From IMG/VR virus record IMGVR_UViG_3300032241_001905, positions 1 to 63,442 of that record: a DNA stretch of 63,442 bases. One strand, written 5' to 3'. A model generated the notes under the pieces. That model was not told the origin of the DNA. It saw only the letters and a list, made by a program, of their open reading frames with translations, and did no database searches. This DNA comes from a virus. Positions 3,632 to 28,875 of the stretch are shown one piece after another; within the stretch, counting starts at the first letter, position 1; each line of letters starts with the position of its first letter. The position numbers and the translations under genes are program-made.

Positions 3632-4898
3632 TTTAGAAGAACACGACAGTATTCTTAACTTTAATAGACCTAATGGGTCATCCAAAACATGGTACCTTAA
3701 AGAAAAAGGTGCTATTGAATATCCTATGATGTGGGGTGATTGGAATATATTTAATGATCCTGAAAAGAAAACAAATTTAATTCAAGGTGAACAAGTAAAA
3801 AATGTAGTATGTCCCCTTTATACTAATCCAATAATGGAATATAGAGATGTAACAAAATTAGGTGAATCACCTCATCTTTATATTATAAATGCATTTCGTC
3901 CTTCATTTTTTGAAGACAATAAAGATATTGGGTTTGATTGTGTACACCCACAATATATACTTGATATTAAAAATGGCAAATGCAAAATAATAATTTGTTG
4001 CTACAACGAAGGATACTCAGGAATGCCTGGCAATTTTGATTTTGAAATAATAGAAAGTTGGAGAATAAAAGCAGGATTACCTCCATATTCAGTATGTTAT
4101 GTAACAGCTAATTTATTAGGTAAGCAAATTGTTCAAGATAGAGGATTATTATTAGAAGTAGAGACTATAGGTACGTTTGAACCGTGTGTATTTTTCAATT
4201 ATATGGATGAAAAAATAATTGATTTTAAACCAATAGATGATAAATATCTTTATTTATCTTACAATAGACAACCACGTTTTCAACGTCAACGTTTTATTCA
4301 AGAATTGTTAAAATCAAATTTAATATATAAAGGTTTAATAAGTATTGGACAAGTTAAAATTGGTAATGTGTGTCCTGAATTAGAAGAAGAAACTAAAGAT
4401 TTTTTATTAAATAAAACTCCACTTTCATTAGGGTATAATTTAATACCCAACTTAGCATGTAATATTCACGCTTCTGATTTTGAACAAACGTTTATTTCTG
4501 TAGTTACTGAAACATTGACGTGTTCTGGTACATTATTTTTATCTGAAAAAACATGGAAACCTTTGTTAGTTGGTCATCCTTTTCTTACCTTTGGCAATAA
4601 AGGTACATTAAATTATTTAAGAAATATAGGATTTATAACATTTGATAAGTGGATAGATGAAAGTTATGATGAATTAGATAATGAAGATGATCGATATAAA
4701 GCTGTAGTTGCTGAGTTAAATAAATTTAGCTCTAAATCTATAGATGAATTAACACAAATTAGAAAAGAAATGGAACCCATATTAAATCATAACCAAGTTC
4801 TATTTAGAACAATGTTTAGAGAAAGATATGATTGGAGTAATAACAGTTTATTATTATTAAATTTCTTTCAAAAAATATGGAATAGCATAAATCAATAA
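3612..4898 (+). CDS. Glycosyltransferase-like protein (paralogue of 586-1917)
   Basis: A 428-residue protein whose ATG lies inside the end of the preceding SGNH gene. The C-terminal third repeats the blocks seen in the gene at 586: GTLFLSEKTWKPLLVGHPF, GNKGTLNYLRNIGF and DKWIDESYDELDNEDDR. The N-terminal halves are unlike each other, which would fit different acceptors with a common donor-binding half. The family resemblance is to phage or marine bacterial glycosyltransferases; no DxD motif is obvious. It is separated from the next SGNH gene by one base, and is likely part of one long polycistronic transcript. Confidence 0.6.
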   Translation: MKKVICSLEEHDSILNFNRPNGSSKTWYLKEKGAIEYPMMWGDWNIFNDPEKKTNLIQGEQVKNVVCPLYTNPIMEYRDVTKLGESPHLYIINAFRPSFFEDNKDIGFDCVHPQYILDIKNGKCKIIICCYNEGYSGMPGNFDFEIIESWRIKAGLPPYSVCYVTANLLGKQIVQDRGLLLEVETIGTFEPCVFFNYMDEKIIDFKPIDDKYLYLSYNRQPRFQRQRFIQELLKSNLIYKGLISIGQVKIGNVCPELEEETKDFLLNKTPLSLGYNLIPNLACNIHASDFEQTFISVVTETLTCSGTLFLSEKTWKPLLVGHPFLTFGNKGTLNYLRNIGFITFDKWIDESYDELDNEDDRYKAVVAELNKFSSKSIDELTQIRKEMEPILNHNQVLFRTMFRERYDWSNNSLLLLNFFQKIWNSINQ

Positions 4899-4899
4899 T

Positions 4900-5697
4900 A
4901 TGAAAAGAAGAATATTTACATTTGGATGTAGCTTTACAGAGTATACATGGCCAACATGGGCTGACCAAATATTGTATAAAAATGAAGGTGTTAACTACGG
5001 GATATGTGGCGGTGGATATGAAAATATAATGAACTGCCTAGTTCAATGTGATTTTGATTACAAATTAACCCCAGACGATGTTGTTGTTGTAGTTTACCCT
5101 AATTTATTAAGATGGGATTGTGCTATATATCCTAAAACAAAGGGTTTTGGTAATGCTATTACTTCGCCTTGGATTGATCATAAAGATGATTTATGGAATA
5201 TAGAGGGTATGGTATATAAAAATTTAAATATCATGGTTATGGTAGATACATTTTTAAAATCTAAAGGCGTTATTTACAGATACAGCAGTATTACCAAAAT
5301 ATTTACCTACTTAGAAAACTACTTTAACGATGATTATCAGGTAAATGGTGATGTTTTAGAACATTTAAATACAGTTAAAAATAGTTTACCATTCTTACAA
5401 GATTTTTATACATATCTTTATGATGATCATGATACTGATAATAGATGGGATTGTACTAAAAACTGGAGCAACGGTAGAGGAGAATATCACCCAAGACCAG
5501 AAGGTCATTATAGATGGTTAATGAATGTATTGATGCCTACCTTAGATGCAAGTATTAATATTAATGAATACGATATAAAAGAAATAGAAGATTATTTAGA
5601 TGATAATGATGATTTCAATGCTGTTGAGGATTATTTTTCTAAATCTGAATACGAACAAAATAGAAAAGACTGGTATAAACTGCATAAAAAGAATTAA
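4900..5697 (+). CDS. SGNH-like hydrolase (third copy)
   Basis: A 265-residue protein starting MKRRIFTFGCSFTEYTWP, a block I with GCSFT (Ser nucleophile near residue 11) placed very close to the N-terminus. NYGICGGGYENI is the block III-like segment. GEYHPRPEGHYRWL toward the C-terminus supplies the catalytic His in an H-P-x-P-E-G-H context. A very acidic C-terminal tail (about residues 225-250) is unusual for the family. It is placed between two glycosyltransferase-like genes, with the last base shared with the next start. It could be an esterase or acyltransferase on the same glycan. Confidence 0.7.
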   Translation: MKRRIFTFGCSFTEYTWPTWADQILYKNEGVNYGICGGGYENIMNCLVQCDFDYKLTPDDVVVVVYPNLLRWDCAIYPKTKGFGNAITSPWIDHKDDLWNIEGMVYKNLNIMVMVDTFLKSKGVIYRYSSITKIFTYLENYFNDDYQVNGDVLEHLNTVKNSLPFLQDFYTYLYDDHDTDNRWDCTKNWSNGRGEYHPRPEGHYRWLMNVLMPTLDASININEYDIKEIEDYLDDNDDFNAVEDYFSKSEYEQNRKDWYKLHKKN

Positions 5698-16362: not shown

Positions 16363-18075
16363 ATGGCAGAAGTAATTCTTTCTCCTGGTGTATTCCAGAT
16401 TGAATCTGATCAAAGTATATACACAACAGCTCCTGCAGCTTTAGGCGCGGCAATTGTAGGTCCTACAGTAAAGGGCCGTCCTTTCGTACCAACGTACGTT
16501 ACAACACTTAACCAATATTTATCGATTTTTGGCGATATATTTAATAGTGGTAGTTACTACTATGAATATTTAACGTCTCAAGCAGCGAAAGAATATTTTA
16601 GCAATGGTGGTCAATCATTGTTAGTTACTAGAATCATTAGTGGTTCAAGTAATGTTAGTACTTATGCTACTTCTAACATCCCTGCATTTATATCTGCATC
16701 AACATCATTTCAATTAGAAACATTGTCATGGGGTGATCAAATGAATAACAGTGGTAGTGAAGTTAGTGGTGCTTTAGCTAGCGGTTCTTCAATGAACGTA
16801 CGCTGGGAAGTAACTAACGTAAATACAGGTAGCGGTACATTTGCTATTACAATACGTCGTGGTGATGATAGTAACTCTCAAAAGAACATTTTAGAAACAT
16901 GGTCTAACTTAAGTTTAGATCCATTATTACCTAACTATGTTTCTCGTGTAATTGGTGATTTAAAACCAGTATATACTGCAGCAACTGCAACAAGTAATGC
17001 TTACATTACTTATGTAGGTACTTATCCAAACGCATCACAATATGTTCGCGTTTCTTCAGTTCCAACTCCAAACGTTAATTCATTAGATAACAACGGATAC
17101 TTTAAAGCAAGTTTATATAGTGGTAGCTTACCAGTAATTGGTAGCGGTTCATTCTTTGGTGGTGTAGCTGATACAACTAACCAAAAATTAATGAATGAAA
17201 ATATCACTTCAACTAATATTCAAGGGTTTGCACCTTCAGATTATCAAACAGCATTAGCTTTATTAACAAACAGAGACGAATATCGTTACAACGTATTATT
17301 AGCTCCAGGTGTTGGTTTAGATAACGCAGCTGCTTCAACATTAGTATCAACAGTAGAAGGTAGAGGTGATGCAATCTCAATTACAGATGCTGGTGTATTT
17401 GGTACAGCTCCAGTTACAGCAACTACAAACGCTGCTGGTTTCTCAAGTAACTACACAGCTACTTATTATCCTTGGGTTCAATTATACTCAAGTGGTTTAG
17501 GTAAAGCAGTATGGTGTCCTCCATCTACAGTAATTGGTGGTGTATTAGCATTCAACGACCAAGTAGGTGCTGAATGGTTTGCTCCAGCTGGTTTAAACAG
17601 AGGTGGTTTACCAAGTGTAGTACGTGCAGAACGTAGATTACAACAAACAGATAGAGATACATTATATAGCGCTAACGTTAACCCATTAGCTACATTCCCT
17701 GGAACAGGTGTTGTAGTTTGGGGTCAAAAGACATTACAACGTAAAGCTACAGCATTAGATAGAGTAAACGTTCGTCGTTTATTAATCGCTTTAAAATACT
17801 ATATTGGAAATGTTTCTCGTACATTAGTATTCGAACAAAACACTACAGTAACTAGAAATAGCTTTTTATCTAAAGTTAATCCATACTTAGAATCAGTAGT
17901 ATCTAAACAAGGTTTATATGCTTACAAAGTAGTAATGGATGATTCAAACAATACAGCTGATGTAGTAGATAGAAACCAATTAGTAGGTCAAATTTACATT
18001 CAACCAACTAAGACAGCTGAATACATAATCTTAAACTACAACATTCTTCCAACTGGTGCTACATTCCCTGCATAA
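16363..18075 (+). CDS. Contractile tail sheath protein (gp18-like)
   Basis: A 570-residue protein. The start AEVILSPGVFQIESDQS and the following AALGAAIVGPTVKGRPF are the signature of T4-like sheath proteins. The C-terminal half (AVWCPPSTVIGGVLAFNDQ, RRLLIALKYYIGNVSRTLVFEQN) matches the conserved sheath domain, including the region that interlocks neighbouring subunits. Length is near that of T4 gp18 (659), slightly shorter. Codon use is richer in C-ending codons than in the glycan genes, consistent with high expression. It is followed at once by the tail tube gene, as in T4. Confidence 0.95.
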   Translation: MAEVILSPGVFQIESDQSIYTTAPAALGAAIVGPTVKGRPFVPTYVTTLNQYLSIFGDIFNSGSYYYEYLTSQAAKEYFSNGGQSLLVTRIISGSSNVSTYATSNIPAFISASTSFQLETLSWGDQMNNSGSEVSGALASGSSMNVRWEVTNVNTGSGTFAITIRRGDDSNSQKNILETWSNLSLDPLLPNYVSRVIGDLKPVYTAATATSNAYITYVGTYPNASQYVRVSSVPTPNVNSLDNNGYFKASLYSGSLPVIGSGSFFGGVADTTNQKLMNENITSTNIQGFAPSDYQTALALLTNRDEYRYNVLLAPGVGLDNAAASTLVSTVEGRGDAISITDAGVFGTAPVTATTNAAGFSSNYTATYYPWVQLYSSGLGKAVWCPPSTVIGGVLAFNDQVGAEWFAPAGLNRGGLPSVVRAERRLQQTDRDTLYSANVNPLATFPGTGVVVWGQKTLQRKATALDRVNVRRLLIALKYYIGNVSRTLVFEQNTTVTRNSFLSKVNPYLESVVSKQGLYAYKVVMDDSNNTADVVDRNQLVGQIYIQPTKTAEYIILNYNILPTGATFPA

Positions 18076-18124: not shown

Positions 18125-18610
18125 ATGCCAGTATTAAGCCCTAACGAAATCATGTTTACCGCGTTTGAACCAAAGGTTCAGAACCGTTTCATGATGTATA
18201 TCGATGGTATTCCAGCATACTTAATTAAAAAGGCTAGCGCTCCTGGATTTGACGCTGGCGAAGTAGTATTAGATCATATTAACGTTTACCGTAAAATTAA
18301 AGGTAAAGTTAAGTGGAATGATATGACATTAGAATTATACGATCCAATCACTCCAAGTGGTGCTCAATCAGTAATGGAATGGGCTCGTTTGGCTCACGAA
18401 TCAGTAACAGGCCGTGATGGTTATTCTGATTTTTACAAGAAAGATTTAACATTAGATATTTTAGGTCCAGTAGGTGATGTAGTAGGTGAGTGGATAGTTA
18501 AAGGTGCCTATGTTAAAACAGCTACTTTCGGTGATTACGATTGGGCTAGTGAATCATATATCGCATTAGCAGTTACAATCGCTATGGATTATTGCGTCCT
18601 CAATTTTTAG
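18125..18610 (+). CDS. Tail tube protein (gp19-like)
   Basis: A 161-residue protein with PNEIMFTAFEPKVQNRFMMY at the N-terminus, then YRKIKGKVKWNDMTLELYDP and VGEWIVKGAYVKTATFGDYD. This is the layout of gp19-like tubes, which stack as hexameric rings inside the sheath. Length matches T4 gp19 (163). Directly downstream of the sheath gene. A strong hairpin follows its stop, and a homing endonuclease gene has been inserted behind it. Confidence 0.95.
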   Translation: MPVLSPNEIMFTAFEPKVQNRFMMYIDGIPAYLIKKASAPGFDAGEVVLDHINVYRKIKGKVKWNDMTLELYDPITPSGAQSVMEWARLAHESVTGRDGYSDFYKKDLTLDILGPVGDVVGEWIVKGAYVKTATFGDYDWASESYIALAVTIAMDYCVLNF

Positions 18611-18689: not shown

Positions 18690-19439
18690 ATGCTTAAAAA
18701 AGACAAAATAATACAAGACAAATATAATGGTATTCACCCAACATGCCAATGTGGGTGTGGTCAACAAACACGCTATGAACCTAATAAAAAGGATTATTGC
18801 AAGTGGATAAGTGGACACCAATCACGTGTAGCTAGTCATTTTGGTGACCCCAAATCTGAAAAACGTGTAAATGCTATTATAAGTACCCGTAAAGCTAAAT
18901 TCGCCTCAGGTGAATACAACCACATATTAGATAAAGTATCACAGAACCGATCTGAAGAAACCAAACAAAAAATTAGTGAAGGAGGTACAGGCGTGTCTCG
19001 CCCTAAAGCTGATGGGTTTGGAATTGGTAGAGTACATAGCCAGGCTACTAAAGATAAAATGAGTAAAACCGCTATCAAAAATATATTAAAAGATGGTAAA
19101 AATAGACGTTCTAAATTAGAATATTTTTTTGAAGGAATATTAGTGTCTTTAAATATAGATTATACTCATTCGTATTATGTAGAAAGTATAAATAAAATAT
19201 ATGATTTTTACCTTCCTAAATATAATATACTGATTGAGGTAGACGGAGATTTCTGGCATTGTAATCCTCAAGAATATGATGTACCTTTATGTAAAACTCA
19301 ACATATTAATATAGAAAATGATAAATTTAAGTCACAATGGGCATTAGATAACGGCTATACATTGTTGCGCTTTTGGGAAAATGATATCAACAATAATATT
19401 AAACAAGTTAAGCAAACATTACTAGAACATTGCAATTAA
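18690..19439 (+). CDS. Free-standing homing endonuclease, Vsr/DUF559-like
   Basis: A 249-residue protein. The N-terminus has a compact Cys-rich unit (CQCGCGQQTRY, with later Cys and His in DYCKWISGHQ). Residues 70-140 hold NUMOD3-like segments (SEETKQKISEGGTG, SQATKDKMSKTA). The C-terminus has RRSKLEYFFEGIL, IYDFYLPKYNILIEVDGDFWH and YTLLRFWENDI, the very-short-patch-repair-like nuclease fold with E, D and D-x-W-H candidates. Such genes spread by cutting alleles that lack them. It sits between tail tube and the next tail gene with its own promoter-like leader. Confidence 0.85.
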   Translation: MLKKDKIIQDKYNGIHPTCQCGCGQQTRYEPNKKDYCKWISGHQSRVASHFGDPKSEKRVNAIISTRKAKFASGEYNHILDKVSQNRSEETKQKISEGGTGVSRPKADGFGIGRVHSQATKDKMSKTAIKNILKDGKNRRSKLEYFFEGILVSLNIDYTHSYYVESINKIYDFYLPKYNILIEVDGDFWHCNPQEYDVPLCKTQHINIENDKFKSQWALDNGYTLLRFWENDINNNIKQVKQTLLEHCN

Positions 19440-19451: not shown

Positions 19452-20156
19452 ATGATTAAATTATTAGATTTACTAAAAGAAGCATATATTAATAAACAAG
19501 GAAGTCTTATAAGTAATGCTGAATTTGTGGTTAAACAAACTGATTTTTTTGATTTAATGTTAATAGATTCAGAAAACATAAATATTAATGATTATGTTAA
19601 TTTTCAATCAAATCAAATTAAGTGGAGTAATCAAAAAGTAGCTAATTCTATTTTTAATCAAATAATGGAATTATATAAGGGAACAGCACTTGAAAAATAT
19701 AACAATACCGTTGGGTTTACCCCTTCAAAGAAAATAAATAGTGGTAATAATGTCTTTGATGCTCCAACATTAGATTTATACTTTATGAAAGGGATTGATA
19801 GAGTTGAAAATGATGTATGGAAAGAATGGTTATTATCTCCACTATATATTGAAACTCCTATTAATAAAGAAGAATATTCTTTAGAAGGCAGAACATTTCC
19901 TAGTATTCCTGGTTTTATAGATAAACCTACCACAATAGGTCCTGGTGAGAAAGCAAAAATGACCACTAACCAGAACAGTGAAGAAGGAGATATTGAAAAT
20001 AAATTGATGTATCTAAACGTAACTTATATACCTTTTATTCATGTTCCAAAATATAAAAAATCTTCACCTTCATATGATATCGAAACAAAATCTAATATTG
20101 TTGATATGTTTAATGAAGTAGGATTAGACGCAATTTCCTATACAAAAAATAAATAA
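19452..20156 (+). CDS. Unknown protein in tail block, 234 aa
   Basis: It starts MIKLLDLLKEAYINKQG, a short amphipathic start of the I-K-L-x-x-L-L-x-E type that recurs in virion genes of related phages. The body has PSKKINSGNNVFDAPTLDLY and a Pro/Gly-rich segment (RTFPSIPGFIDKPTTIGPG). No family is recognised and no catalytic motif, signal peptide or membrane helix is visible. The position between tube and gp26-like gene suggests a tail or assembly function. It may have been separated from the tube gene by the homing endonuclease insertion. Confidence 0.6.
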   Translation: MIKLLDLLKEAYINKQGSLISNAEFVVKQTDFFDLMLIDSENININDYVNFQSNQIKWSNQKVANSIFNQIMELYKGTALEKYNNTVGFTPSKKINSGNNVFDAPTLDLYFMKGIDRVENDVWKEWLLSPLYIETPINKEEYSLEGRTFPSIPGFIDKPTTIGPGEKAKMTTNQNSEEGDIENKLMYLNVTYIPFIHVPKYKKSSPSYDIETKSNIVDMFNEVGLDAISYTKNK

Positions 20157-20221: not shown

Positions 20222-20965
20222 ATGGCAGAATTAAAGTTACCAACAGAGGTTATATCGTTACCGTCAAAAGGTTTATTGTATCCTAAAGAAAGTCCATTAT
20301 CATCAGGACAAGTTGAGATGAAGTATATGACAGCTAAAGAAGAAGATATTCTTACTAATGCTAACTTCATTAGAAATCAAACAGTAATAGATAAGTTATT
20401 ACAATCTATGGTTATTACTAAAGTAAATTTTGATGATATTTTGGTAGGTGATAAAGATGCTATTTTAGTAGCAGCTCGTATTTTAGGTTATGGTAAAGAT
20501 TACGTTGTTGAATACGGTGGTAAAGAACATACTATCGACTTAACTACATTAGCTGATAAAGAATTAGATGCATCTTTAGTAAAAGATGGTACAAATGATT
20601 TTTTATTTACTTTACCTAGAACAAATAATACAGTCACATTTAAGTTATTGACACACGGTGATGAGAAAAAAATTGAAGCTGAAATTAAAGGTTTACAAAA
20701 AGTAAATCCAAATGGTTCATATGATGTTACAACACGTTTAAAATACATTATTACTTCAATAAATGGAGATCGCGAACCAAAATCAGTACGTGAGTTTGTA
20801 GACACATTATTGTTAGCATCGGACGCTAGAGCGTTACGTGAATATTATTCTAAAATACAACCAGGTATTGATATGAAGTTTATTCCAAACGACGAAAATT
20901 ATACAGGGGAGGGTATAGCGTTCACCCCAGGTATTAACTTTTTTTGGCCTGACGCTGGAGTATAG
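20222..20965 (+). CDS. gp26-like baseplate hub/tail assembly chaperone
   Basis: A 247-residue protein. The start ELKLPTEVISLPSKGLLYP and the segment EMKYMTAKEEDILTNANFI match the T4-type base plate family that includes gp26 (about 208 residues). It lies directly before the tape measure gene, the position of tail assembly chaperones in many phages. The zero-frame product ends NFFWPDAGV. Just before this end is a run of seven T (20939-20945), after which a second long frame continues without its own start codon. The gene therefore probably makes two products, one by +1 frameshifting. Confidence 0.8.
   Translation: MAELKLPTEVISLPSKGLLYPKESPLSSGQVEMKYMTAKEEDILTNANFIRNQTVIDKLLQSMVITKVNFDDILVGDKDAILVAARILGYGKDYVVEYGGKEHTIDLTTLADKELDASLVKDGTNDFLFTLPRTNNTVTFKLLTHGDEKKIEAEIKGLQKVNPNGSYDVTTRLKYIITSINGDREPKSVREFVDTLLLASDARALREYYSKIQPGIDMKFIPNDENYTGEGIAFTPGINFFWPDAGV
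20939..20945 (+). promoter_or_regulatory. Candidate +1 programmed frameshift site (seven T)
   Basis: The zero frame reads AAC TTT TTT TGG. A tRNA-Phe slipping one base forward on the T run enters the frame GGC CTG ACG CTG GAG, which stays open to 21215. The +1 frame has a TAG shortly upstream and no ATG, GTG or TTG start near its beginning. Confidence 0.6.
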
Positions 20966-21215
20966 ACCCCATCTATTTAAACAAATACATGAAATCGTAT
21001 TTCACGGAAATGGTGGATACGATTGGGATACTGTTTATCATATGCCTTTATGGTTACGTCGAACTACATGGAATTTAATGCAAGAATATTATAAAAAACA
21101 AGAAGAAGAACGTGAAAACCAACAAAATGCATTAAAAAACAATAAGGGTAAAAAAATAGATAAACCAAATATAAACACAACACCAGATTATACAACAAAG
21201 GCACCTAGAAAATAG
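20946..21215 (+). CDS. gp51-like tail assembly extension (frameshift product)
   Basis: A 90-codon frame with clear protein-like content: LEYRPHLFKQIHEIVFHGNG, then GGYDWDTVYHMPLWLRRTTW and a charged helical tail rich in Lys, Glu and Gln. The GGYDWxTVYxMPxWLR pattern recurs after gp26-like genes in related phages. The first ATG lies in the middle of the conserved segment (21042) and no other start fits, so the domain is most likely made as a fusion to the gp26-like protein by +1 slippage. The arrangement parallels lambda gpG/gpGT before the tape measure. The gp51 label is positional, not proven. Confidence 0.65.
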   Translation, partial: GLTLEYRPHLFKQIHEIVFHGNGGYDWDTVYHMPLWLRRTTWNLMQEYYKKQEEERENQQNALKNNKGKKIDKPNINTTPDYTTKAPRK

Positions 21216-21235: not shown

Positions 21236-23311
21236 ATGAGATTAGACTTTACTCCACGATTACAATACGACCCAACACCGGGAGTACCGACTGCGGATGA
21301 CCTTAAAAACATGGAGACTTTAGCTGAAGAGCAAATTAAATTTAATGATGAATTAAATGCTACTAAAGATATCTATGATAAGATTACAGGAGCTGATAAA
21401 ACCATATTAGATAATTTAGGTAAAAAAATTATAAATGTTGAGAAATTAAACATTAGATATGGTTTAGGTCAAAAAATTCTTGCTGAGGTTAATAAAAAAC
21501 AAATAGATTCTGAGGTAGAGTTAAATTTATTACAAACTCAGAGAGAAAGAATATTAAAAAGAATATCAACCGCTAAAAAGGATGATGTTGTAAAGGATCT
21601 TAAAGCACAGTTAGCAAATAATTCCGCTCAACTTCAAGTTCAAAGAGCATTAGATAGCAACTTAAGATTAATTCAAGAGGCAGCTGAAGCAGAACAGAAA
21701 AAAGCAGATGAATTAAAGAGCCAAAACAGTTTAATTGATATAGCAGCTAAAAAGAGAAAAGATATTGAAGATTCAATAAGTAAATATTTTTCTTTAGCAA
21801 GTATATTTAAAATTATTATTGATGGAGCACTTAACTTTAATAAAGTATCTGTAGATATTGGTAAAAATCTAGGATATAGTGCTAGCCAAGCAGATAGAGT
21901 AGCTTCTGATTTTAAAAATTTAGCAGAAACATCAGGTGATGTATATCTTACCTTAGCTAATATAGCTGAAGCAGCTAATCAAATTAGTGAAGCAACAGGA
22001 TTTGTATCTGAATACTCAGCAGATACACTGAAAACTCAAATAATGTTAACCAAACAATTTGGATTAACAGGAGATGAGGCAGCAGGTATCTACCAATATT
22101 CAGTATTAACAGGTAAAGCTGCATCTGAGGTTAACGAAGCTATGGTTAGAGCATATGTTGCTACTAGGAACCAACTTGGTGTTGGTGTTCCATTTAAAGC
22201 AACAATAGCAGCCGCAGCTAAAGTATCAGGTGAATTAGCAGCTAACTTACAAAATAATCCTGAGGCAATAGTAAGAGCAGTAACGCAAGCTAAAGCATTA
22301 GGTACATCATTAGAACAAGTAAAAGGACAAGGTGATAAATTATTAGATTTTGAATCATCAATTGAAAGTCAACTTAAAGCTCAATTGTTAACAGGTGAAT
22401 CTCTTAATTTAGAAAGAGCAAGAGCAGCTGCATTAGCAGGTGATCAAATTACATTAGCAAAAGAACTTAGCAATCAAGGTATGACTCTTAGTAAGTTTGA
22501 ACATATGAATGTTCTAGCTAAACGAGCATACGCTGAAGCAGTAGGATTAACATCTGATCAATTATCAGATCAACTTAAAAAACAACAATTAGCTATTCAA
22601 AGCGGTAAGTCATTAGCTCAAATTACTGAAGAAGATGCATTACAAGCAGAAAAAAGAGTAGCTGTACAAGATAAATTCAATCAAGCTGTATTAAAACTAC
22701 AAGATTTCTTTGGAAATTTATTAGCAGGTCCTGTAGGAGGTTTACTAGAAGCATTAACTAATATGCTACCTATTATAGAAGATATAGGTGTAGCTTATGG
22801 TGTGTGGTGGACTATTTCTAAAGGTATTGCAATATCTCAAGCACTTTCATCTGGTAGTTTATTAGCTCAAATAAGCGGATTACCAGCATTAATAGGATTA
22901 AAAAGTACAGAAGCCGCTATTGCTACTGAAACAGCAGCCGCTACAACAGTTACTGCAGAAGCAGCAACATTTGGCGCCGCTACATTATGGATTGTAGGCG
23001 GTTTATCAGCAGTATTAGGAGCATTAGCTGGATATGGTGTTTCAAAAGCCGGTGACATGGTTAGTCCGGCAGATGGTAAAACAATGGTTTCAACTAAAGA
23101 AGGCGGATTATTTGAATTAAGTAAAAACGATGATTTGCTAGCAGGCCCTGGATTAGCCAAAGGTGGGGGTGGTGATTTATCACCGTTAGTTAGCGCTATT
23201 AACGCGGTTAAAGCGTCAGTTGATAGATTATATGCTAAAGAAGGTGTAGTTAACCTAGATGGTAAGAGGGTTGGTACATTATTAACACAAGGCTCATATA
23301 AGACAGCCTAA
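21236..23311 (+). CDS. Tape measure/tail core protein (gp29-like)
   Basis: A 691-residue protein. Residues 20-180 are strongly helical and charged (KNMETLAEEQIKFNDELNAT, then QLANNSAQLQVQRALDSNLR). A long Ala-rich helical middle follows. Residues 505-610 are hydrophobic (FFGNLLAGPVGGLLEALTNM and a Gly/Ala-rich stretch near 580-605), as expected for the membrane-interacting part of tape measures. Position after gp26/gp51 and before baseplate genes fits gp29 of T4 (590 residues). The length would set the tail length slightly above that of T4. Sequence alone does not separate a tape measure from a hub protein. Confidence 0.75.
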   Translation: MRLDFTPRLQYDPTPGVPTADDLKNMETLAEEQIKFNDELNATKDIYDKITGADKTILDNLGKKIINVEKLNIRYGLGQKILAEVNKKQIDSEVELNLLQTQRERILKRISTAKKDDVVKDLKAQLANNSAQLQVQRALDSNLRLIQEAAEAEQKKADELKSQNSLIDIAAKKRKDIEDSISKYFSLASIFKIIIDGALNFNKVSVDIGKNLGYSASQADRVASDFKNLAETSGDVYLTLANIAEAANQISEATGFVSEYSADTLKTQIMLTKQFGLTGDEAAGIYQYSVLTGKAASEVNEAMVRAYVATRNQLGVGVPFKATIAAAAKVSGELAANLQNNPEAIVRAVTQAKALGTSLEQVKGQGDKLLDFESSIESQLKAQLLTGESLNLERARAAALAGDQITLAKELSNQGMTLSKFEHMNVLAKRAYAEAVGLTSDQLSDQLKKQQLAIQSGKSLAQITEEDALQAEKRVAVQDKFNQAVLKLQDFFGNLLAGPVGGLLEALTNMLPIIEDIGVAYGVWWTISKGIAISQALSSGSLLAQISGLPALIGLKSTEAAIATETAAATTVTAEAATFGAATLWIVGGLSAVLGALAGYGVSKAGDMVSPADGKTMVSTKEGGLFELSKNDDLLAGPGLAKGGGGDLSPLVSAINAVKASVDRLYAKEGVVNLDGKRVGTLLTQGSYKTA

Positions 23312-26028: not shown

Positions 26029-28875
26029 ATGTCAATATTCAAAGATACATTTAAACAAGGCGTTCAAGACCAAATAACAGCACGTCAAAATGCTATAGTA
26101 GGTAGGAGTGTAGATTCCATGCAATATTTTAATTCACGCAATGCTTGGATTAAAATGACTTCTGCTGTAAATGTAGGAGGATCTGCTGACTTAGCAGCTA
26201 AATATATTTTACAAGGTGGTATTTTAAATTCAAAATCCAAATTAAGATCAGGACTAGGACAAGATGGTGCTTACAGCAATGTTTCACCTACAGGAAAACC
26301 TTATAGATTAGGTATTAGACCAATGCCTGGTATTAACCATATAGAAGTTAAATCAAAATCAGCATATGGTTCTTTAAGAGAAATTACAGTACATTTTCAG
26401 GCTTGGGATATTAGACAATTAGAAGATTTAGAATTATTATATATGAGACCTGGTTATTCTGTATTAGTAGAATGGGGTTGGTCTCCTTATTTAGATAATA
26501 AAGGTGCTTTACAAACAACTGTAAATTATAATGAAGTTAATATATTAGGTAATAGTGCTCCTAAAACTTCAAAAGAAGATATTTGGAAAGCTATATATAC
26601 TAAAGCCGCTAGAGACGGAAATTATGATGCTGTATATGGCTTTATTAAAAATTATAGCTGGTCAGCTCGCACAGATGGAGGATATGATTGTACTACAACC
26701 ATAATAACAATGGGTGAAATATTAGAATCATTAAAAATAAACTATGGCTCATTTGATACAAATGTAGGACAAATAGGAGCATTTAAAGTATTACCTGTTT
26801 CTTCATTTCAAACTAGTCCAAATAACGCACTTTTACTTAGTGCAGGAGTAGCAGGAGCTGGTTTAAATGGAAGTACAGGTGCTGCCTCTGCTATAGTTAG
26901 TGTTATTAATGAATCTAATTTATCCAAATCATACGCTCAAAACTTATTAGCAGGTATACTTAATGAATTATATTTAATAATGAAAGATAGTAGTCTTTCC
27001 AAGTATGCTATTGCAAATAACTTTAATGAAGGTACATTTACTGATACTACTTCGGGATATAGTTATACTTTCTTTAGATATGATTTAGATATATCTGGAA
27101 ATAATAAATTAGATAAAACTGACTTTCACAATAACACTCAAATTTTTATTAAATTAAAAGATTTTATTAATTTATTAAATACAAAAATATTACTACACGA
27201 CTCAGATCATACAAACCCTAAAGCATTAGTAGAAGTTTCAGTTACAGAAGGAACTATACACCAAACAGGAGCAGATTTATTATGTTTAAGTCACCCATTC
27301 CAATTATCAACTGACCCTTCAGTATGTTTAATAAAAAATAATAAATGGATAGATCCACAAAATAATTTCAACATAACAGTAGATAATGTTAACTTATCTC
27401 AAGTGATGAATGGATTAAAAAGTGATTTTTATAAAGATACAGCTAACGGTAGTGCACAATTAGGTGTTATAGGAAATATTTACGTTAATTTAGGTTATTT
27501 ATATTCTTTAGTTACAAATGAAGATTTAGCATCTAGAGATAAAAAGGAAAAAAATGATATTTCGGTATTTGATTTTCTAAAAAATATGCTAAACGGTATT
27601 AATACCGCTATTGGTAATGTAGCTAACCTTGATATATTTGTAGATCCTGTAGATTCTGTAGCTAGAATAATAGATGTAAACTATGTTGATTCTGCTAAAA
27701 GACAGAAAGCATATGATGATGCCTTTATTATTCAAATGCAAAATATCAAATCAGTAGTAAGATCTTATAAATTAGAATCACAAATATTTCCTGAGCAATC
27801 AACTATAGTTGCTATTGGAGCTCAAGTAAAAGGAGGAGCATTAGGTACTGATGTAAACACATTAATTGATTTTAATCAAAATTTAGAAGACAGAATCATA
27901 CCTAAAAGAGATGCTCCGCTTACTACTATTAAATCTAATCCTTTAGAAGAAGCAGAAACTAAAGTTAAAAATTTAAAAACTAATTTAAATTCTATAACAA
28001 AGTATATAAGCAAACTAGAACCAGGATTTTGGAGTAATACAGGTGACTTTAGTGTTTTAGAAGCATCTAAATATGCTAACTCTTTAAAGGACATTATTTC
28101 ATTCTATAAAGATTTAACACCAGACGACAATAAAAATAGAGCAATTATTCCTACAAAATTATCTATTGATATGGATGGTGTAGGAGGAATTATTATAGGA
28201 AATTTATTTAGAATACCAGATGATATATTACCAAGAGGATATAAAGGTGATGGTGCTGGTCCTAAAAAAATATCTTATGTTGTTACTGGTATAGGTCATT
28301 CAATTCAAAATAATGATTGGACAACTCATTTAGATGCTCAATTTATCATATTAGATGAACCTACAGGAAGCATATCAATAGCAGATGCTAATAAATTAGC
28401 AGCCTCAATAATTGGTTCTGTTAGTAATGGTAATACAATTCAAGCAGCAGCTACGTTAGCTGGTTTAACTTCTACTCCTAATGGATTAGTATATCCTGTT
28501 AAAGGTTTATTTACTATATCTTCTAAATTTGGAACTGTTAGAGCAGATGAAATACATCCTGGAACTGATATATCTGTTGGTTTAGGTACACCTGTAATAG
28601 CAGTTGAAGATGGAACAGTAATAGCATCTACTTTTAATACCCTTAATGGAAACTATATTAGAATTCAACATACAGGACAATTAGCAGGATATGATACTAT
28701 TTATCTTCACATGTCTCAACTTAATGTAAATAAAGGGGATAAAATAACTAAAGGCCAAATAATTGGACTTTCAGGAAATACTGGTAAATTAAGAGGTCCT
28801 CACTTACATTTCCAAATAGACCAAACAGGAGGAACAACAGGAATAAATCCATCTCAATTTTTCCCTGGATTTTAA
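26029..28875 (+). CDS. Baseplate hub protein with C-terminal M23 peptidase
   Basis: A 948-residue protein. The N-terminal region (GINHIEVKSKSAYGSLREIT, DIRQLEDLELLYMRPGYSV, LVEWGWSPYLDN) resembles the gp27-type hub that forms the trimeric ring at the tail tip. From about residue 819 the C-terminus is a LytM/M23 metallopeptidase: EIHPGTDIS has the HxxxD zinc ligands (His843, Asp847) and GPHLHFQI the HxH (His925, His927). This cuts peptide cross-links of peptidoglycan during injection. T4 uses a separate gp5 lysozyme; here hub and lysin are one chain. A short spacing and no SD precede ATG 26029. Confidence 0.85.
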   Translation: MSIFKDTFKQGVQDQITARQNAIVGRSVDSMQYFNSRNAWIKMTSAVNVGGSADLAAKYILQGGILNSKSKLRSGLGQDGAYSNVSPTGKPYRLGIRPMPGINHIEVKSKSAYGSLREITVHFQAWDIRQLEDLELLYMRPGYSVLVEWGWSPYLDNKGALQTTVNYNEVNILGNSAPKTSKEDIWKAIYTKAARDGNYDAVYGFIKNYSWSARTDGGYDCTTTIITMGEILESLKINYGSFDTNVGQIGAFKVLPVSSFQTSPNNALLLSAGVAGAGLNGSTGAASAIVSVINESNLSKSYAQNLLAGILNELYLIMKDSSLSKYAIANNFNEGTFTDTTSGYSYTFFRYDLDISGNNKLDKTDFHNNTQIFIKLKDFINLLNTKILLHDSDHTNPKALVEVSVTEGTIHQTGADLLCLSHPFQLSTDPSVCLIKNNKWIDPQNNFNITVDNVNLSQVMNGLKSDFYKDTANGSAQLGVIGNIYVNLGYLYSLVTNEDLASRDKKEKNDISVFDFLKNMLNGINTAIGNVANLDIFVDPVDSVARIIDVNYVDSAKRQKAYDDAFIIQMQNIKSVVRSYKLESQIFPEQSTIVAIGAQVKGGALGTDVNTLIDFNQNLEDRIIPKRDAPLTTIKSNPLEEAETKVKNLKTNLNSITKYISKLEPGFWSNTGDFSVLEASKYANSLKDIISFYKDLTPDDNKNRAIIPTKLSIDMDGVGGIIIGNLFRIPDDILPRGYKGDGAGPKKISYVVTGIGHSIQNNDWTTHLDAQFIILDEPTGSISIADANKLAASIIGSVSNGNTIQAAATLAGLTSTPNGLVYPVKGLFTISSKFGTVRADEIHPGTDISVGLGTPVIAVEDGTVIASTFNTLNGNYIRIQHTGQLAGYDTIYLHMSQLNVNKGDKITKGQIIGLSGNTGKLRGPHLHFQIDQTGGTTGINPSQFFPGF

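Follow-up and report, generated by a model that had tools for sequence, protein, structure and literature searches.

Frameshifting in the tail assembly chaperone (TAC) genes of phages and +1 shifting at UUU_U or CUU_U are both known. In the lambda type of TAC frameshift, the overlapping frames lie between the genes of the tail tube and of the tape measure (PMC5009743). A review of 2016 describes the G-T shift as widely conserved in long-tailed phages "except T4", and a +1 shift at the position of the tail chaperone as very likely in HSTV-2, a haloarchaeal myovirus (PMC5009743). Regarding T4, the summary of a 2022 study given in PMC10885494 states that some T4-like phages carry a short gene and a fused long gene instead; the 2022 Virology paper is cited there for the view that T4-like phages make both products by means other than frameshifting. 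As for prfB, a survey reports poly-T exceptions in 21 genomes (PMC12421855).

The locus that we describe here lies in a virus record of 63,442 bases, a partial genome that, over its whole length, is referred to below as the window (Table 1). We infer that it represents a TAC frameshift with a site of the prfB type (CUU_U/UUU_U) lacking both the stop codon and the adjacent Shine-Dalgarno (SD) sequence. Comparison with relatives makes it very probable that a programmed +1 frameshift at a run of T's yields a long product, TAC-NC, beside the short one, TAC-N.

The two frames are arranged as a preliminary description of this DNA had claimed, down to the stop codons that delimit them. The TAG on the 5' side closes the +1 frame upstream, so that entry into this frame must come after position 20918. 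From there the frame is open (20919-21215), and the first ATG, GTG or TTG that it contains is the ATG at 21042, which is within the conserved part of the product; no such start precedes that part, as had been remarked. The run of seven T's was confirmed to the base. It is read TTT TTT TGG in the zero frame, and after a +1 shift the sequence across the junction is ...GINFFGLTLEYRPH..., as it had been written.

Table 1. Features of the TAC locus and of the neighbouring tail genes, in coordinates of the window.
Feature	Position	Strand	Remarks
Tail sheath gene	16363..18075	+	PHROG 23, E 4.9e-71
Tail tube gene	18125..18610	+	PHROG 4542, E 1.2e-21
TAC-N (gp26-like), zero-frame ORF	20222..20965	+	247 aa, ends ...NFFWPDAGV*
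Predicted fusion TAC-NC, by a one-base forward shift	20222..21215	+	330 aa (translation)
GGAGG element	20908..20912	+	29 nt before the shift codon
TAG shutting the +1 frame on the 5' side	20916..20918	+	
C preceding the T run	20938..20938	+	
Putative shift site TTT TTT T (family consensus TTT YTT T)	20939..20945	+	shift codon 20942-20944, UUU_U
TAC-C in the +1 frame (GLTLEYRPH...)	20946..21215	+	gp51-like C-terminal part
Zero-frame stop TAG, closing the short form	20963..20965	+	24 nt 3' of the first T of the run
Tape measure protein gene	21236..23311	+	691 aa; BLASTP match (E 2e-26) to the protein annotated as tape measure in Flavobacterium phage immuto

Judging by sequence comparison, the zero frame codes for a gp26-like TAC-N and the +1 frame for the corresponding TAC-C. 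In a profile search, TAC-N matches PHROG 150 (baseplate hub, gp26 family; E 2.5e-7); its match to Pfam T4_baseplate is weak (E 4e-4), and the N protein of a relative, Streptococcus phage GXN1, directly matches KVP40 gp26. The family matches of TAC-C are weak: the +1 frame of the window matches PHROG 634 (gp51 family) with an E value of 0.024, and among 49 TAC-C relatives six match this family (best E 5e-4) and eight match PHROG 32580, "tail assembly chaperone". Nine of the 49 TAC-C sequences (relatives of window 20940-21212) match Pfam DUF6760, a family of unknown function, with a best E of 1.5e-4, and DUF6760 may be a TAC-C-like family. A search of NCBIfam returned no family. The PHROG matches, together with the tape measure homologue downstream, bear out the earlier proposal of a gp26-like and gp51-like chaperone ahead of the tape measure gene.

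The 330-aa fusion was modelled with AlphaFold2 (mean pLDDT 88.6) on an alignment made of N rows only, which makes the C part of the model less certain. By Foldseek the model matches gp26/gp51-like proteins of phages (E 4.9e-16 for the hub of SP-15), and Foldseek alone gave no significant match in the PDB. When residues 1-94 of the model were compared with 573 aligned solved chains by VIA-align, the top two were YqbN 3klu (Z 5.8 over 87 residues) and HK97 2ob9 (Z 4.7 over 80 residues), both with Z below 8; unrelated rows had Z 2.7 in the same comparison. Both chains are described as TACs (PMC9603447). The model thus suggests a modest similarity of the short product to the TAC fold, Z alone being below a convincing level.

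The tape measure homologue begins 20 nt past TAC-C, and the sheath and tube genes are upstream of the TAC; the order in immuto is also sheath, tube, TAC and tape measure. The TAC of immuto directly follows the tube gene, whereas in the window a probable homing endonuclease gene (NUMOD3/Vsr-like, DUF559) occupies 18690-19439, between tail tube and TAC. An ORF of 234 aa at 19452-20156, just 5' of TAC-N, has no significant match in PHROG or Pfam, and immuto has no gene at the same place. Downstream of a baseplate wedge-like gene, window 26029-28875 codes for a protein of 948 aa whose C-terminal domain is metallopeptidase-like (matches to PHROG peptidase/endolysin families). No tRNA gene was found in the window.

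The preliminary description had suggested that the same arrangement be sought in relatives. We gathered loci from viral contigs, mainly via the N protein and partly via the C frame, and located TAC-C in each of them by its own profile; those in which it could not be placed are contig ends or belong to distant groups. TAC-C is in the +1 frame in all of the distinct junctions, 114 out of 114 in a first set and 251 out of 251 in the full set. Six loci with TTT TTT TGG or TTT TTT TTC were found in bacterial genome bins, several of them labelled Flavobacteriales or Winogradskyella. Along with the cultured Flavobacterium phage immuto, these labels point to Bacteroidota hosts, and judging by the sequences the same +1 arrangement appears to be common to hundreds of mostly uncultured Bacteroidota phages. 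The complete genomes of the immuto phages and of Microcystis phage Mel-JY01 contain a single match each for N and for C, and no second, in-frame long copy, as in the T4 arrangement, was found in them.

This frame relation bears on two other readings. An error of sequencing or assembly in the T run, which would have split one gene in two, had been named beforehand as the artefact to fear, and the run is indeed a homopolymer within a metagenomic contig. However, the identical frame break occurs in more than 250 distinct junctions, including those of the cultured phages immuto and Mel-JY01, and also where the run is TTTCTTT; a break shared by relatives excludes such an error, whose probability we consider negligible.

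According to the second reading, TAC-C is a separate protein made from a non-standard or internal start. The records of KVP40 and Bellamy do list a short gene of its own here, and in 101 of 248 loci the +1 frame has some ATG, GTG or TTG ahead of the site. The other 147 have none, however, and in 29 of the 248 a stop lies so close that only one +1 codon is left before the site. Downstream, the first ATG, GTG or TTG is most often 32 codons in, beyond conserved residues. The CTG at 20949, the only candidate at the site and a start codon of the kind that the preliminary description had set against its own reading, is CTA in Mel-JY01, and in about a fifth of the clusters the codon at this position ends in a base other than G. 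The CTG of GGC CTG was rejected as a start codon, not being universal among relatives. A separate start moreover gives no reason for the synonymous constraint that extends across the junction, including that on YTT_T, or for the avoidance of T before it (see below), and we regard it as quite improbable.

A programmed +1 shift is in line with the conservation of the site itself. The consensus TTT YTT T is found in 248 of the 251 distinct +1 junctions, and YTT_T, that is, a P-site codon of the prfB type (CUU or UUU followed by U), in 250. The commonest forms are TTT TTT TGG (205), TTT TTT TAC (25) and TTT CTT TGG (15), followed by TTT CTT TAC (3), TTT TTT TTC (2) and TTT TTT TAT (1), counts which also take in three loci without a placed TAC-C. 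The exceptions to TTT YTT T are TTC TTT T in two loci (L255 and L251) and TTT CTA TTC in one (L161). The base 3' of the shift codon is T in all main-clade junctions but one, as re-pairing in +1 requires, while the codon that follows YTT_T varies between TGG, TAC, TAT and TTC; no stop codon is found in the A site of the +1 junctions.

Synonymous conservation was tested on 85 clusters sharing less than 70% amino-acid identity, over 245 columns. Synonymous-codon identity has a median of 0.507, and the five columns where it is highest are exactly those of the junction: 0.998 at the shift codon, 0.976 at the following Pro, 0.954 at the preceding Phe, 0.895 at the Asp and 0.877 at the residue ahead of the run. 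The conservation of CCT GAC can be put down to dual coding, which fails to account for the avoidance of TTC at the Phe codons or for the acceptance of CTT. At the second Phe codon, TTC occurs in none of 78 clusters, compared with 102 cases of 518 in the remaining Phe columns (p 2e-7; the independence of clusters that these site statistics assume holds only approximately). TTT and CTT interchange at the shift codon by six changes on the tree, at least four of which are on well-supported branches. These data support the idea that the essential element is YTT_T, with CTT_T as a recurrent natural alternative, rather than seven T's as such. The forward slip of tRNA-Phe that the preliminary description had proposed thus gains comparative support, but the seven T's to which it was attached are not essential.

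The same variants help in judging two further readings. If RNA polymerase slipped on the T run, a mixed mRNA population would result, and a homopolymer of seven T's is a plausible place for it. Yet in the TTTCTTT variants a C leaves no more than three T's on either side. These variants have several origins and still have TAC-C in +1; the cultured immuto carries one of them. Relatives in which the T run is broken therefore disfavor transcript slippage, which is highly improbable in our opinion.

Alternatively, ribosomes could shift back by two bases. The tail chaperone of phage Mu uses such a -2 shift. It leads to the same frame as +1, the T run permits the re-pairing, and the CTT variants alone are compatible with it. 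However, TTC TTT T in L255 and L251 would put the -2 re-pairing on TCT, and so would TTC TTT C in GXN1. Only a +1 shift requires the fixed T that follows the shift codon, even if a constraint on the aromatic residue may contribute to it. We hold a -2 shift to be very improbable.

The base before the run also argues for a +1 shift. Of 248 relatives, 188 have C here, 46 have G, 13 have A and a single one has T; counted by clusters, T is found in only 1 of 82. Elsewhere in these genes, 28% of the in-frame TTT codons are preceded by T and 7% by C, so that T is clearly avoided before the run (p 7e-10). A T at this position would create a -1 heptamer, T_TTT_TTT, and its absence avoids a -1 site.

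On the contrary, the cyanophage-type junctions read NNT TTT TTC G, and the downstream frame is open in -1, never in +1, in 78 of 78 distinct junctions. The downstream frame is also in -1 in KVP40, in Atu_ph07 and in a 595-kb uncultured phage. T_TTT_TTC is present at or near the end of TAC-N in the cyanophages, KVP40, Atu_ph07 and the 595-kb phage (L168, L332-L411, L166, L167 and L165). All of these are apparently classic -1 frameshift sites. The cyanophage and KVP40-type relatives appear to use -1 at the same two Phe codons, which agrees with the preliminary remark that -1 is used elsewhere. The KVP40 and Bellamy records annotate separate genes at the -1 junction. Bacillus phage SP-15, Listeria phage LIS04 and GXN1 are in +1; the second codon of their Phe pair is TTT, and the base ahead of the pair is other than T. 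In the tree of N proteins, the members of the main +1 group form a single clade (SH-aLRT 99), and the trio of SP-15 groups with the -1 phages (85). This separation suggests that the direction of the shift has probably changed two or three times, a tentative conclusion given that the deep branches are long.

Another conserved element lies upstream of the site: a GGAGG/GGGGAGG that is fixed in position and synonymously selected, at window 20906-20913 and at the same place in relatives. Out of 82 divergent clusters, 34 have a GGAGG that starts exactly at -31, and 61 have a strong SD-like match within 50 nt upstream, compared with 0-5 in control stretches; about a quarter of the clusters lack the element. 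Codons -11 to -9 before the run have a strong synonymous bias, with G or C as third base, and for Glu at codons -12 to -9, GAG prevails by 81 to 29, compared with 42 to 157 upstream (p 1e-19). To our knowledge, 29 nt is too far for SD stimulation as it has been described, and we know of no stimulator that acts at such a distance. These phages make hardly any use of SD sequences at gene starts (in the window, 1 of 46 long ORFs). This scant use is in keeping with the occlusion of the anti-SD in Bacteroidia (PMC8710568).

At prfB spacing an SD is absent from the +1 junctions: at spacer 3, the 82 clusters together have three SD-like 4-mers. For 50 junctions RNAalifold predicts no pairs that would form a downstream stem or pseudoknot, and folding of single sequences downstream of the junction is only mildly stable (mean z -0.97).

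It is conceivable, if rather doubtful, that all these observations belong together: in a single chaperone family, the direction of the shift would have been switched with the two Phe codons kept and the two flanking wobble bases changed (NNC TTT YTT T for +1, NNT TTT TTC for -1), and in Bacteroidota GGAGG 29 nt upstream would have become a new long-distance stimulator, in ribosomes that normally hide their anti-SD.

The mechanism that we propose for the +1 shift is the following. Most ribosomes would terminate at 20963 and release TAC-N. In a minority of them, tRNA-Phe on the P-site UUU (20942-20944) would re-pair one base forward, with the UUU at 20943-20945; GGC would be read next, and the 330-aa TAC-NC would result, with a predicted junction peptide ...GINFFGLTLEYR. 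In relatives with CTT, tRNA-Leu on the P-site CUU would re-pair to UUU, in the same way as for bacterial release factor 2. If the analogy with lambda G/GT holds, TAC-N would serve as a coat for the tape measure protein, which the rarer TAC-NC would connect to the subunit of the tail tube. The comparison of sequences itself shows which genes these are, how their frames are related, that the site is conserved and that a -1 site is avoided; the shifting of ribosomes at this site, its efficiency and the role in assembly are what we infer.

Annotations of the +1 arrangement currently miss TAC-C. Within it, the records of immuto (L159, 3839-3949) and SP-15 (L164, 3321-3440) have only a "hypothetical protein" of 36 to 39 aa, that of LIS04 has no annotated ORF, and none of the records that we examined annotates a frameshift for this arrangement. 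The T4 superfamily, which is the exception to TAC frameshifting in the review cited above, now gains a large clade with strong comparative evidence for +1. More than 250 natural variants of UUU_U/CUU_U on a sense codon, with no adjacent SD, make the minimal requirements of +1 slippage testable, and the mirror-image -1 site of the cyanophages offers a clean test of how the flanking wobble bases set the direction.

Compared with T4, the proteins are of the same gp26/gp51 family by PHROG profile and by fold, although hhalign to the single T4 gp26 and gp51 sequences gave nothing significant. When the sequences are read by eye, T4 gp51 looks like TAC-N plus TAC-C, and gp26 like TAC-N alone. The difference is that T4 has two separate genes where a single frameshift locus is found here. 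In T4 (L247) they are at 3803-4429 (-) and 4480-5229 (+); gp26 ends ...GLKEFFELL, with a Phe pair that resembles the shift site of the relatives, and gp51 reads like an in-frame TAC-NC.

The gp26-type TAC of cyanophages and KVP40 has its site at the same position and, where TAC-N ends, on the same pair of Phe codons; it differs in having NNT TTT TTC G with -1, in place of NNC TTT YTT T with +1. HSTV-2, likened here from its published description, has an unrelated host. With prfB CUU_UGA the locus would share the re-pairing at CUU_U, more rarely at UUU_U, and both codons occur here. Unlike prfB, it has a sense codon in the A site instead of UGA, and GGAGG 29 nt upstream instead of an SD three bases upstream.

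Last, the locus resembles lambda G/GT in its place between the tube and tape measure genes, in its overlapping frame with a conserved, shift-prone site just 5' of the stop of the short form, and in the short and long products that are predicted from it. It is not a canonical TAC heptamer, the base before the run being C and the second frame +1: where lambda shifts by -1 on X_XXY_YYZ, the site here is YUU_U, with a predicted shift of +1, and the protein belongs to the gp26/gp51 family.
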